Source: Taibaiella koreensis
GTDB lineage: Bacteria; Bacteroidota; Bacteroidia; Chitinophagales; Chitinophagaceae
Assembly: GCF_003545715.1 (NCBI RefSeq)
Contig: NZ_QVNU01000005.1
Coordinates: forward strand, 62,001 to 126,000
DNA length: 64,000 nt
Direction: 5' to 3'
Below are positions 25,965 through 55,842 of this stretch, piece by piece (position 1 is the stretch's first letter; each line of letters opens with the position of its first letter). Under the pieces are notes generated by a model. That model worked only from the letters and a program-made list of their open reading frames with translations. It was not told the origin of the DNA and searched no databases. A program made the position numbers and the translations under genes.

Positions 25965-26049
25965 CGGAGGGAGAGGGATTCGAACCCCCGGACCTGTTAC
26001 AGTCAACAGTTTTCAAGACTGCCGCAATCGACCGCTCTGCCATCCCTCC
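25965..26049 (-). tRNA. tRNA-Ser (anticodon UGA)
   Basis: The minus strand folds as a class II tRNA: acceptor GGAGGGA/TCCCTCC, discriminator G, anticodon stem CAGT/ACTG with loop CTTGAAA (anticodon TGA), a long variable arm as in serine tRNAs, and T loop GGTTCGAATCC. CCA is not encoded. The 3' end is repeated three times elsewhere in the window (16841, 25634, 25801). Confidence 0.95.
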
Positions 26050-50487: not shown

Positions 50488-52974
50488 CTACTGACCACCC
50501 ATGCTTTGCTGACCATTACCGCCGCTCTTCAGGTCATTGTTGTCTACTTTCTTCTGCTGCATAAAATGCATTTTCCCGAAGTTGAGCTGGAAAGACAAGC
50601 GCACACCGCGGCCATAATAGGTGGAATGCATTTCGTAATCGGCATTCTGGTATTGGTACTTGGTGGTCATGTGCACTTCAGGCGTAAAGAAGTTCTCACC
50701 GGCCAGGTTGAGCGTTCCTTTGCCTTTAAGCACGGTCACCTGTAGGCCCAGGAAGTAGTAATACCAGGTGGTCTGGTAACCCTGCAGCTGGATCTGGTTG
50801 CCGTTGTACATAGCATATCCGGCAATGGAGAAGCGCTCCGAAAGCTTGAAGCTGGTGTACATGCTGGCGGTATACTGCCATCCTGAATTTTCAATATTCA
50901 GCGAGGGGCTCTTCAGCATTTTGTAATAGAGGCTGCCATTGAGATTGACCATCCAGCGGCCGAAGAAGGTTCCCGACCCAAAAAAATCAAGGCCTGCAGT
51001 ATTGTTCTTCGCCACATTTTGGTAAGTCGTATGGCTTACGTTATCCGCATCTACGGCGGTCACGTTCTCGATCCCATTGCCGGTGTAGCGGTAAAATGAG
51101 GAGAAGTTGAGGCTGGTATTGCCGAAAAAAGTGCTGTAGCCCAACTCGATATTATGTGTCTTTTCCGGCACCAGCAGCGGGTTGCCCTGCGTCAGGTTGT
51201 ACCGGTCGCTGTAATTGATATAAGGATTCACATAGTCGATGGACGGCCGTTCGATCCTCATATTGTAAGACAATTTCAGCTTGCTGTAATCGCTAAGGCC
51301 ATAAGCAAAGCTAAGATTGGGCAGCAGGTTGTTGAATTGCGTTTTGAATGCGCTACCTGCTTCCTCTTGGTGGCCTTTGATATCGGTAAACTCATAACGT
51401 GCGCCCGCAATCATGCTCAGCTTTTTGCTGAGCGGCGTCGAGAATTGCGCATAAGCGGCGCCCACCTGCTGCACATAACCCAGCCGGTTGGTCCTGAGCG
51501 GATCTACCGCAAAATCGGTAGCATTAGGCGTCCAGAACTCCAGCTCGTAATCGCTTGAGATATTCCGGTTGATGTATTTGAGCCCCGTCTCGATCTTCTG
51601 CTTCGGATTCTTCAGCGGATGTACATAATCGGCCTGTATGGTAAACTCGTTGTTATGGTTCTTGTTCGTATTACGCTCTTTATAGTTGACAGCATCGTCC
51701 GTCATCCCCTTCCCTTCCAGTTCGTATTTTGAAGTAGTCGAATTAATGGAATATTGCGCGAGGATATCCAGCGTTCGTTTGGGATTGTTGCGGAACTTAA
51801 GCGAGTAGGCCGCATCGAATCCTATATTGTCGCGGGGTGACTCGGAATAGGTATTCCGGCGTGAATCGGCCGTATCGACGGGCGCAAAGTGGTTGAACAG
51901 GCGTGTGTTCTGTGTCCAGTTGCCGGGGTTATAATTGATGCCGGCCTGTATGGATTGCAGCGAGTCGATCTGGTAATCGGCATTAAGGCGGCTCCAGTAG
52001 AAATTGCCGCCACCGTTGAATATAGTCTTCTGGATCAGGGTTGCCTGGGAGTCGGTGCGGGGAAAATCGGTTCGCTCCGACATCATGTCGATCACCATTT
52101 CCCAGCGGCTGGCGCCTGCATTCAGGCCCAGGCCAAAATTCTTATTGCGGTAATTGAGGTTGAATCCGCCATGACCGGTCAACAGTTGCTGCGGCGCATT
52201 ATAGCTAAGCGCGCCGAATACCGAACCGCTAAGCCCTTTCATTACATTCTTCTTCGTAATGATATTGATCACGCCTGCAGCGCCCTCGGCATCATAGCGC
52301 GCGCCGGGACTCGTAATGACCTCCACCGATTTGATATTGTCCGACGGGATCTGGCGCAAAGCATCCTTAACGCTCGAAGCAATGAGCGTCGAAGGCTTGC
52401 CATCGATCAATACCCTGATGTTGCGGCTGCCACGCAGCTGTACATTGCCTTCCAGGTCTACAGTTACCATAGGCACCTTGCGCAGCAGCTGATCGGCGGT
52501 AGTGCCTTTGTTGGTAATATCTTTGTCGGCATTATAAACCATACCATCGGGACGCTGCTCTACCAGCTGACGGTAATCGACGATCTGCACTTCCTTCAGG
52601 GCCGTATTGCCGGCATTCATATTGACAATGCCCAGCGCAAGGTCTTTTCCGGAAGGTTCCACAACGACGGTGCGTTCCAGTTTGGGATAACCGACATAAT
52701 AAACGCTTAATGTGTATTCGCCCGGCTGTACATTCCGGAAAGCGAAGTAGCCCGCACTGTCTGAATTGATGCCATCGGAAGCCTGTTCACCTTTTTTGAT
52801 CAGCATCACAGAACTGAATTCCAATACCTGGTTGGCAGCCGAATCTTTAATGGTCCCCGATACGGTAACCCCACCCTGTTGCTGCGTCGTAGCATTCCCG
52901 GTCGGGTTCCCAGTTTGAGCCATAGCGCCGGAGAGGTAGCAGGTCAGCGCTATGGCGAGTAATAGTCTCGTCAT
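50488..52974 (-). CDS. TonB-dependent-receptor-like outer-membrane barrel protein
   Basis: 828 residues from ATG 52974, signal peptide MTRLLLAIALTCYLSGAMAQ. An N-terminal carboxypeptidase-like domain (VTVSGTIKDSAANQVLEFSS ... GEYTLSVYYVGY, about 35-115) is followed by a plug (QLLRKVPMVTVDLEGNVQLRGSRNIRVLIDGKPS ... IKSVEVITSPGARYDAEGAAGVINIITK are its core region) and a barrel of the outer-membrane beta-barrel family 3 type (YGLSDYSKLKLSYNMRIERPS, NPYINYSDRYNLTQGNPLLVPE). No TonB box was identified. Ligand unknown. The promoter TAACTTTG is at 52994. Single-gene unit. Confidence 0.92.
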   Translation of the reverse strand: MTRLLLAIALTCYLSGAMAQTGNPTGNATTQQQGGVTVSGTIKDSAANQVLEFSSVMLIKKGEQASDGINSDSAGYFAFRNVQPGEYTLSVYYVGYPKLERTVVVEPSGKDLALGIVNMNAGNTALKEVQIVDYRQLVEQRPDGMVYNADKDITNKGTTADQLLRKVPMVTVDLEGNVQLRGSRNIRVLIDGKPSTLIASSVKDALRQIPSDNIKSVEVITSPGARYDAEGAAGVINIITKKNVMKGLSGSVFGALSYNAPQQLLTGHGGFNLNYRNKNFGLGLNAGASRWEMVIDMMSERTDFPRTDSQATLIQKTIFNGGGNFYWSRLNADYQIDSLQSIQAGINYNPGNWTQNTRLFNHFAPVDTADSRRNTYSESPRDNIGFDAAYSLKFRNNPKRTLDILAQYSINSTTSKYELEGKGMTDDAVNYKERNTNKNHNNEFTIQADYVHPLKNPKQKIETGLKYINRNISSDYELEFWTPNATDFAVDPLRTNRLGYVQQVGAAYAQFSTPLSKKLSMIAGARYEFTDIKGHQEEAGSAFKTQFNNLLPNLSFAYGLSDYSKLKLSYNMRIERPSIDYVNPYINYSDRYNLTQGNPLLVPEKTHNIELGYSTFFGNTSLNFSSFYRYTGNGIENVTAVDADNVSHTTYQNVAKNNTAGLDFFGSGTFFGRWMVNLNGSLYYKMLKSPSLNIENSGWQYTASMYTSFKLSERFSIAGYAMYNGNQIQLQGYQTTWYYYFLGLQVTVLKGKGTLNLAGENFFTPEVHMTTKYQYQNADYEMHSTYYGRGVRLSFQLNFGKMHFMQQKKVDNNDLKSGGNGQQSMGGQ

Positions 52975-53196: not shown

Positions 53197-53454
53197 ATGA
53201 AAAAGAAAAACACAGGCAACAGGCTATCCCTGATCAAAAAGAAAATCATTTCTCTTTCAGCTGGTGCAAATCAGGTGCACGGCGGTATACAGCAGGATAC
53301 ACTATTGGGTTGCCCCCAACCCACCGGCTCGCCCACCTCACCCCGGGAATGCCATAACACCCGGGACAAAAACTGTGTCGGCGCAAACACTGCCCGCTGT
53401 AATGCCACGACCGTGCCGCCGTTTACACAAGGGCAGTGCGGCATCGATGCCTGA
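53197..53454 (+). CDS. RiPP-type precursor peptide, first of tandem pair
   Basis: 85 residues. The leader MKKKNTGNRLSLIKKKIISL...NQVHGG ends at Gly29-Gly30 and shares the KKK...L-x-L-x-K-x-x-I-x-x-L pattern with the precursors at 16487, 27249 and 53508. The 55-residue core carries five Cys (GCP, ECH, NCV, RCN, QCG) among Pro, Thr and Asn. No modifying enzyme or exporter lies nearby. The second precursor starts 53 bp after its stop and both precede one strong terminator, so they are likely co-transcribed. Class (lanthipeptide or other) is inferred only from the leader. Confidence 0.7.
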   Translation: MKKKNTGNRLSLIKKKIISLSAGANQVHGGIQQDTLLGCPQPTGSPTSPRECHNTRDKNCVGANTARCNATTVPPFTQGQCGIDA

Positions 53455-53507
53455 ACCCTGTTCCGGCAAATCCTTTATGTATCATTTCACCCTTTAAAAT
53501 TGTTCTG

Positions 53508-53675
53508 ATGAAAAAGAAAACTGGTTCCGGAAAAAATCTGTCGCTTACCAAGATCCACATTACGGCATTGGATAAGATCACCGGTAAAGGCGGCGTTACC
53601 GCCAGTAACAACGGCTGCGGAAGCGCCCGCACTATTGACGGCGCCTCAGGCGGATGCGGCTATTGCCAAAATTAG
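53508..53675 (+). CDS. RiPP-type precursor peptide, second of tandem pair
   Basis: 55 residues from ATG 53508; an in-frame extension to 53436 would cover the spacer and is rejected because the leader pattern starts at MKKK. Leader MKKKTGSGKNLSLTKIHITA...TGKGG with Gly28-Gly29; the core is only 26 residues, VTASNNGCGSARTIDGASGG then CGYCQN, with three Cys and many Gly/Ser. It differs in core from its neighbour although the leaders are alike, the expected pattern when one enzyme set handles several products. Confidence 0.68.
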   Translation: MKKKTGSGKNLSLTKIHITALDKITGKGGVTASNNGCGSARTIDGASGGCGYCQN

Positions 53676-54951: not shown

Positions 54952-54980
54952 GGTCGTTTTTCTCGTTAGTATTAAGACAT

Positions 54981-55008
54981 AAAAAAAGCTTACCGGTTCC
55001 GGTAAGCT
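54981..55008 (-). promoter_or_regulatory. Intrinsic terminator in the lysA leader (probable attenuator)
   Basis: On the minus strand: AGCTTACC-GGAACC-GGTAAGCT followed by TTTTTTT, 30 bp before the lysA ATG and downstream of the leader promoter. Upstream bases can compete: CTGTAT within the leader-peptide gene (55059-55054) is complementary to ATACAG just before the hairpin, and CTTACC (55064-55059) to GGTAAG of its 3' arm. Either pairing would form an antiterminator. Confidence 0.7.
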
Positions 55009-55047
55009 GTATCATTATTGTTTCGTTCAGGACAATAAGATCTCCGC

Positions 55048-55107
55048 TCACCCATACAGGTAAGGTTTCTTGGTCTTTATTGTCTTTATGCTTGTTATCA
55101 GGGACAT
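55048..55107 (-). CDS. Lysine-rich leader peptide of lysA (19 residues)
   Basis: ATG at 55107 reads MSLITSIKTIKTKKPYLYG and stops with TGA at 55050-55048. Four of 19 codons are Lys (AAG, AAG, AAG, AAA), all within seven positions, right ahead of the bases able to pair with the terminator region. This is the layout of ribosome-mediated attenuation (as in trp, his or thr leaders). The peptide itself needs no function. Short length makes chance possible, but promoter, peptide, hairpin and gene are in the expected order. Nothing resembling a lysine riboswitch core was seen. Confidence 0.6.
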   Translation of the reverse strand: MSLITSIKTIKTKKPYLYG

Positions 55108-55124
55108 GTTGTTGTCGGTGGACG

Positions 55125-55132
55125 CAAAGATA
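55125..55132 (-). promoter_or_regulatory. -7 promoter element of the lysA leader
   Basis: TATCTTTG on the minus strand, exact match, 18 bp ahead of the leader-peptide ATG and about 174 bp ahead of lysA. It shows that the hairpin at 54981 lies inside the lysA transcript, not at the end of the upstream gene. Confidence 0.6.
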
Positions 55133-55158: not shown

Positions 55159-55842
55159 TTAATCGATCAGGCTTTTGCGTTTGCCTGCCGGCGGCCTGGC
55201 ATATCCTTTCTTATTGTGCGGCAGGTTGTCGTTCCGTTTCCTGATCGCCAGGCTATCCGATCGTGTGTAATGGCTGAATTCCTGCTCCCGGATCAGGTTG
55301 TCCACCTGGTATTCCTCTTCCCGGGTCAGCTGACCGGTAAGGGCGTCATAATAGCGCCATACGCCATGCTTGGTATAGCCCAGCTCTGTAGGCACCATCA
55401 CCAGGGAGTCCTCCAGGGTTTCGGGGCTCGTTACCCAAATGGAGTCATATTTGCCATCGGCATAGAGACCGCGGTAATTGCCTACGCATACAAGCCGGCC
55501 TTGTTCGTAGTACTGGGAAGTGCCGTTGAGCTGGCCACGCAGGTAATTCTCGGTGGAAAGAAGCCGCTGATCCTCATCCAGCTTGGTCCATACGCCGGCT
55601 TTCTTGTCGTCGATGTAGCTTCCGTATTCGTAGTAATGTGGCTCCCCCATGTGGGCCGCATATTCGTAGAACCAAAGTCCCTGCTTGTGGTTGCGGATAT
55701 CGGTCCGGTTCAGGTTATCCTTTTTGGCTATCGCCGGCTGATGTTCCGGCTTATTTTCCTTTTTGCTCTGGGCAAAAACGACAACATCGCCCGAAAGCGC
55801 TATTATCACCATCACTATTAAAAACCCGGTCTTTCGTTTCAA
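55159..55842 (-). CDS. Secreted MORN/YwqK-like repeat protein
   Basis: 227 residues; start TTG 55842 gives the signal peptide KRKTGFLIVMVIIALSGDVVVFAQ, while the first internal ATG would cut it. Repeats of MORN/YwqK type follow: HKQGLWFYEYAAHMGEPHYY, DDKKAGVWTKLDEDQRLL, GQLNGTSQYYEQGRLVCVG, YTKHGVWRYYDALTGQLTREEEYQ. Such repeats mediate protein contacts; function not known. It is the last gene of the run 59467-55159. Confidence 0.75.
   Translation of the reverse strand: MKRKTGFLIVMVIIALSGDVVVFAQSKKENKPEHQPAIAKKDNLNRTDIRNHKQGLWFYEYAAHMGEPHYYEYGSYIDDKKAGVWTKLDEDQRLLSTENYLRGQLNGTSQYYEQGRLVCVGNYRGLYADGKYDSIWVTSPETLEDSLVMVPTELGYTKHGVWRYYDALTGQLTREEEYQVDNLIREQEFSHYTRSDSLAIRKRNDNLPHNKKGYARPPAGKRKSLID

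Follow-up and report, generated by a model that had tools for sequence, protein, structure and literature searches.

A putative lysine-sensing leader-peptide attenuator ahead of lysA in Taibaiella, and related candidate leaders before other amino-acid genes of Bacteroidota

The window analysed here is a stretch of 64,000 nucleotides from Taibaiella koreensis, in which the diaminopimelate decarboxylase gene lysA lies on the minus strand behind a compact leader (Table 1). The upstream ORF is on the same strand and ends at 55159, 51 nt before the leader ATG. The leader contains a box of the Bacteroidota -7 consensus (TAnnTTTG), a short ORF with Lys at codons 8, 11, 13 and 14 (AAG, AAG, AAG and AAA), a hairpin closed by seven T and, ∼30 nt past the T-run, the start of lysA. 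These elements had been read from the letters alone in a preliminary description, and all of them were recovered at the same places. The distance from the -7-type box to the leader ATG is 15 to 22 nt in the window and three Taibaiella relatives, and reading of the sequence between the hairpin and lysA found no TAnnTTTG box. Between lysA and an 828-aa gene (50488-52974), the window also holds two small ORFs on the plus strand (53197-53675) that look like Bacteroidota peptide natural-product precursors; the first (53197-53454) has no family match, and for the second (53508-53675) there is a weak match (E 0.015, below the cut-off) to NF038153, a family of class I lanthipeptide leaders.

Table 1. 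Features of the lysA leader, in window coordinates
Feature	Position	Strand	Basis or remark
-7-type promoter motif, TATCTTTG	55132-55125	-	Bacteroidota-type consensus, motif only; upstream of leader ORF
Leader ORF, 19 codons, MSLITSIKTIKTKKPYLYG and stop	55107-55048	-	Counterparts in T. helva, T. chishuiensis and T. lutea
GACAATAA within the Lys codon stretch	55077-55084	-	Possible protector helix with TTATTGTC at 55038-55031
Region 1, CTTACC, adjoining the last Lys codon	55059-55064	-	Can pair with region 2
Region 2, GGTGAGC, antiterminator 5' arm, includes UGA stop	55046-55052	-	Invariant in four Taibaiella species
Small hairpin TTATTGT...ACAATAA, inside the antiterminator	55015-55038	-	Folding
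Region 3, GCTTACC	55001-55007	-	Partner of region 2 (antiterminator) or region 4 (terminator)
Region 4, GGTAAGC, terminator 3' arm	54988-54994	-	Hairpin call
Terminator hairpin, AGCTTACCG-GAAC-CGGTAAGCT	55008-54987	-	Strong stem
T7 run closing the terminator; first T also in the stem	54981-54987	-	Sequence
lysA, diaminopimelate decarboxylase, 401 aa	54951-53746	-	NCBIfam TIGR01048, 392.2 bits against a cut-off of 297.9

The leader thus combines a cluster of Lys codons, a terminator between ORF and gene, and an antiterminator 5' arm that lies over the stop codon. Three pairings are available (1:2, 2:3 and 3:4), each of which excludes its neighbour. The preliminary description had proposed a natural antiterminator from two complementary pairs, CTGTAT/ATACAG and CTTACC/GGTAAG. 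Both are complementary as written, but ATACAG is missing from the T. helva leader, which rules out CTGTAT/ATACAG as the conserved antiterminator. An alternative pairing does exist; its conserved partners are GGTGAGC and GCTTACC.

We propose that this leader is very probably a ribosome-mediated transcription attenuator that senses lysine, as charged tRNA-Lys, ahead of lysA; the reading rests on sequence comparison and agrees with the main claim of the preliminary description. RNA polymerase would start upstream of the small ORF, with a ribosome following. When charged tRNA-Lys is scarce, the ribosome would wait on the Lys codons and mask the codon stretch together with region 1, so that region 2 could pair with region 3, no terminator would form and lysA would be transcribed. 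When lysine is plentiful, the ribosome would reach the stop codon and mask region 2, the 3:4 terminator would form, and transcription would end ∼30 nt before lysA. We infer the transcription start site, translation of the ORF, ribosome stalling and the response to lysine.

In the folding computations, the ribosome was represented by deleting all RNA as far as 12 nt beyond the start of its A-site codon. With the RNA cut before region 4 and the ribosome on either of the last two Lys codons, the probability of pairing 2:3 is 0.99 and 1.00 in the window, 1.00 and 1.00 in both T. helva and T. chishuiensis, and 0.98 and 0.99 in T. lutea, where a ribosome on the first Lys codon gives only 0.04. In every one of the four species, a ribosome at the stop codon brings P(2:3) to 0.00 (RNA again cut before region 4) and P(3:4) to 1.00. 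The full-length equilibrium fold without a ribosome favours the antiterminator in the window (P 0.97) and T. helva (0.99), and the terminator in T. chishuiensis and T. lutea; the protector pairing 1:2 is possible, and ribosome-free folds are mixed overall. If the ribosome is placed on the last Lys codon, the full-length equilibrium fold favours 3:4 in each of the four species. The model therefore needs the antiterminator to form before the terminator is complete, i.e. it relies on co-transcriptional timing, as in known attenuators. On that condition, the computed folding fits classical ribosome-mediated attenuation.

The lysA genes of T. helva, T. chishuiensis and T. lutea are 98%, 87% and 86% identical to that of the window, and all four Taibaiella genomes keep the leader ORF, its Lys codons, regions 2-4, the hairpin and the T-run. 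Their leader peptides (MSLITSIKTIKTKKPYLYG in the window, and MTLIANIKTIKTKKPYLYG, MISIPTAKQIKKIKLYPER and MFQALKQIKAKLTSPGEPYFIV) contain three or four Lys each: Lys is found at codons 8 and 11 in every species and at codons 13 and 14 in three species each, with AAA/AAG exchanges. The T. lutea leader has three Lys codons, and its stop begins 15 nt beyond region 2, which a ribosome at that stop would mask only partly. The preliminary description had also looked to covariation. The alternative pairings are kept in all four species, but pair counting in this four-sequence alignment found no covariation beyond shuffles. One double change is visible by eye (a terminator pair that is A-U elsewhere and G-C in T. 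lutea), where MAFFT had put the arm one base off.

We also searched with a codon-blind detector, defined as a terminator, a region complementary to its 5' arm and a short ORF stopping at that region. It finds the window leader and gives no hit when the 260 nt preceding lysA are dinucleotide-shuffled 1500 times. Applied to the window ORFs of 150 codons or more (36 in all), it marks lysA and one other gene, whose leader-like ORF (MYWVLTTGRKTIL) has one Lys. The lysA survey comprised 109 loci from two overlapping collections with duplicates retained; one locus was too short, 108 were tested, and the window leader was tested separately. Eight of the 108 are marked: six are Taibaiella (three species, each twice) with three or four Lys, and two (L092 and L100, with 0 Lys each) give the background of 2 in 102 non-Taibaiella loci. 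No Lys leader stands before lysA at any of these 102 loci. Before lysA, the Lys codons expected in related leaders are thus kept in the four Taibaiella genomes but not at these loci outside the genus; the lysA leader is not a general feature of Chitinophagaceae, in which a related element precedes asd or an aminotransferase gene instead.

Two side observations arose from these loci. At three lysA loci (L070, L078 and L043) and three Taibaiella asd loci (L143, L145 and L146), a hairpin with a T-run lies no more than ∼15 nt past a promoter-like box, and these start-site-proximal terminators have no visible leader ORF. On two contigs of metagenome-assembled genomes, L004 (labelled Competibacteraceae) and L063 (labelled Rhodobacteraceae), lysA is 68% and 58% identical to the Bacteroidota gene, and both contigs are probably misbinned.

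Relatives of the leader were sought with covariance model R1, built from the four Taibaiella lysA leaders only (sub-alignment A3, in which T. lutea is aligned at the second ATTGT copy, as in the unused A2 and A4) and run on 394 Chitinophagaceae genomes, 79 of which match at E 0.1 or better. The 30 loci listed comprise the four Taibaiella lysA genes and 26 loci of other genera. At each of these 26, the downstream gene is an amino-acid gene that fits the leader codons: asd (aspartate-semialdehyde dehydrogenase) at 20, behind Lys or Lys/Thr leaders (e.g. MKKIKNIKIKKQILNREVA), an aminotransferase gene at three, behind Lys leaders (e.g. MMNNKPYKKDKKRIPQR), and hisG at three, behind His leaders (e.g. 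MNSIFHIHHHHTYLGR). At least three Lys occur in 19 of the 20 asd leaders; the other (L135) has two. One representative of each gene was checked against NCBIfam: asd and hisG score above the cut-off, while the aminotransferase matches generic families only, all below the cut-off among the 25 of 66 families listed. Because the Lys codon columns are part of R1, its hits are to some extent bound to be A-rich ORFs; the match of the downstream gene to the codons is not prescribed by the model.

The asd upstream regions surveyed came from 115 non-Taibaiella Chitinophagaceae, four Taibaiella and 24 Bacteroidota of other families; six of 121 matching non-Taibaiella genomes were omitted (G107, G122, G046 and G056, all four with incomplete hits, and also G075 and G105). 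The detector marks a leader in 75 of the 115 regions, 74 of them with at least three Lys. In Taibaiella it marks two of the four asd regions, and a Lys leader is present in none. Lys accounts for 26.3% of residues in frame in the 74 leaders, compared with 6.3% and 11.0% in the other frames, and Thr for 12.9%. RNAalifold on the 74 recovers a counterpart of region 2 and the 2:3 pairing (five pairs, two with changes on both sides); it does not return the terminator. Pairing 2:3 forms in 74 of 74 stall folds and in 56 of 74 ribosome-free folds, and 3:4 in 72 of 74 stop folds. Since the detector demands 2:3 complementarity, the 2:3 alignment and stall-fold results are partly circular. This does not apply to the pairing of the codon stretch with the segment past the stop, the equivalent of the possible protector helix in Table 1, which the detector does not build in: the mean energy is -12.9 kcal/mol with a leader's own post-stop segment versus -10.2 kcal/mol with those of other leaders, 66 of the 74 leaders pair better with their own partner than the cross mean, and none of 5000 permutations reaches the observed mean (relatedness ignored). 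Of the 74 leaders, 71 have a TAnnTT[TC]G box no more than 45 nt upstream of their ATG, compared with nine of 319 background windows, and in 39 of the 71 the box is only 7 to 10 nt before the ATG. With the box so near, many asd leaders are probably almost leaderless.

The aminotransferase gene appears to carry the lysine leader where asd does not. All four Taibaiella genomes have a weaker R1 match before it (E 0.05 to 1.9), with leader ORFs containing three, three, four and two Lys (MTRHKVYKNMKRFTNPR in the T. koreensis genome itself); the detector misses these Taibaiella leaders. It marks six of the 30 aminotransferase regions listed, five with at least three Lys, and a further two, from Taibaiella, come from R1 only. 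All seven Lys leaders before the aminotransferase gene are in the 14 genomes without a detected asd leader and none in the 16 with one (Fisher p = 0.0017, with relatedness ignored and the lax R1 search applied to Taibaiella alone). The gene behind the lysine attenuator thus seems to differ within the family, being asd in some members and the aminotransferase gene in others, with lysA in addition in Taibaiella. None of the four Taibaiella genomes has a match above the cut-off to the DapL family TIGR03542. This leaves room, as a prediction only, for the aminotransferase in diaminopimelate synthesis; the absent match does not prove such a role. In T. koreensis the gene lies outside the window (G000:C10:100182-101435), and in each of the four Taibaiella genomes its leader contains Lys codons. 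The relative L137 matches only generic NCBIfam families below the cut-off, and we regard the aminotransferase as a candidate diaminopimelate-pathway transaminase.

A second model, R2, made from the asd leaders, was run on 345 genomes of the class, 87 of which match at E 0.01 or better. The 30 loci listed comprise (i) four Chitinophagaceae asd genes; (ii) 15 asd genes of other families with Lys leaders, often with Met or Cys; (iii) five aspartokinase-homoserine dehydrogenase genes with Thr/Ile leaders (e.g. MTINNTTIITIITTGINFGGR); (iv) one hisG with a His leader; (v) one asnB with MKTQTHNNNRFFALASR (Asn); and (vi) four loci (L323, L325, L326 and L327) that were rejected for having no matching leader. 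The strict detector marks none of the 24 other-family asd regions, yet R2 yields these 15 among the loci listed, of which L310 and L311 have identical leaders. NCBIfam supports L318, L324 and L328 as aspartate kinase (genes cut by the locus end), L320 as asparagine synthase B, L317 as hisG and L304 as asd; the remaining downstream genes were assigned by their N-termini only. In five asd leaders of other families (L310, L312, L313, L314 and L319), Lys is accompanied by Met or Cys codons, as though more than one product of the aspartate pathway were sensed.

Explanations other than lysine sensing were weighed against these data. The same leader could act through the ribosome but respond mainly to Thr or Ile, or to the general state of translation: the window ORF also has three Thr and three Ile codons, the four Taibaiella leaders share Ile10, and Thr is frequent in the asd leaders. 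However, the invariant Lys8 and Lys11 are joined in each species by at least one later Lys, while no Thr position is common to the four; lysA serves lysine alone, and Thr/Ile-rich leaders instead precede aspartokinase-homoserine dehydrogenase genes. We consider this reading very unlikely. A shade less probable still is that the hairpin does no more than terminate the upstream gene and that the Lys-rich ORF arose by chance in A-rich DNA. The upstream ORF does run in the same direction and ends close to the leader, Lys codons do arise from A-rich DNA, and the R1 match before lysA of one genome (G157), set aside as a candidate, is just such a plain terminator without a Lys leader. Chance is difficult to reconcile with an ORF, Lys codons and region 2 kept in four species, with an arrangement not reproduced in 1500 shuffles, and with Lys enrichment in the related asd leaders that is specific to one frame.

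The explanation to which we give the least credence is a metabolite- or protein-binding RNA (a riboswitch or the target of an antitermination protein) that controls the terminator, with the ORF incidental. The leader is strongly structured (-38 kcal/mol over 169 nt, z = -4.63, with none of 200 dinucleotide shuffles as stable), but its conserved parts are the codon stretch and the alternative pairings, and no Rfam family matches it at the gathering score; below that threshold, Phe_leader ranks first (E 2.5, 16.6 bits; gathering score 55). At the gathering score, the window as a whole gives a single Rfam match, to a tRNA (25965-26049), no T-box leader is found there, and no Rfam leader family matches in 20 related loci. 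The lysine riboswitch (L-box, RF00168), which controls lysine genes in other bacteria, is not found in the four Taibaiella genomes or in the window, and is found in four of 14 control genomes. It resembles the proposed attenuator in controlling lysine genes, but unlike the window leader it binds lysine directly and has no ORF.

A lysine-sensing leader peptide remains our preferred reading, and its closest mechanistic counterparts are the classical attenuators of Proteobacteria (trp, his, thr, leu, ilv and pheA). The window leader shares with them a short ORF with regulatory codons, alternative 2:3 and 3:4 pairings with a possible 1:2 pairing, and a terminator before a biosynthetic gene; it differs in its Lys codons, its Bacteroidota host and the lack of a match to an Rfam leader family at the gathering score. 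The nearest precedent for the Lys codons is SEP5 of Sinorhizobium meliloti, a small ORF in the 5' UTR of what the authors name an aspartate dehydrogenase gene; it contains six Thr codons and three Lys codons and was proposed as a possible leader peptide (PMC10117765). It belongs to an alphaproteobacterium and does not precede lysA, and the passage describing it does not mention an alternative RNA structure (PMC10117765). Within the same phylum as the window leader, 'strong clues' were described for leader-peptide attenuation before amino-acid biosynthesis operons in Flavobacterium psychrophilum (PMC9723704), and small ORFs in long 5' UTRs of Bacteroides thetaiotaomicron were called reminiscent of leader peptides (PMC7366714). 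The word 'lysine' is absent from the main texts of these two papers, supplementary tables apart, and overlap is possible. The Bacteroid-trp RNA motif RF01692, listed as a cis-regulatory candidate in Bacteroidetes (PMC2864571) and compared here by that listing alone, has no match in the window at the gathering score. According to the part of a 2010 paper that treats the subject, leader-peptide systems had been shown only in Proteobacteria and Actinobacteria, to which it added Firmicutes (PMC2965389), and the corresponding part of another describes no conserved RNA structure upstream of actinobacterial lysine operons (PMC1262725). Among the literature titles listed, none deals with a lysine leader attenuator of Bacteroidota. 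The mechanism is therefore known, whereas its lysine specificity and its breadth in Bacteroidota were not found in print among those titles.

In brief, the comparative data are the strongest evidence: they suggest a conserved attenuator that is one of a larger set, with lysine as its most likely specificity. Bacteroidota mRNAs rarely use Shine-Dalgarno sites, and transcription-translation coupling is little studied in this phylum; lysine is also an unusual signal for leader-peptide attenuation. One short leader may thus open a set of candidate attenuators in Bacteroidota, whose codons match genes of Lys, Lys/Thr, Thr/Ile, His and Asn synthesis. We see an even chance that this set is a wide class of near-leaderless attenuators in which the regulatory codons double as the 5' arm of the protector helix, and that its Lys version has moved between asd, the aminotransferase gene and lysA in Chitinophagaceae, so marking the aminotransferase as the missing diaminopimelate-pathway transaminase. 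The shift in which gene is under putative lysine control would in this way provide a testable prediction for an aminotransferase that has no specific family name.
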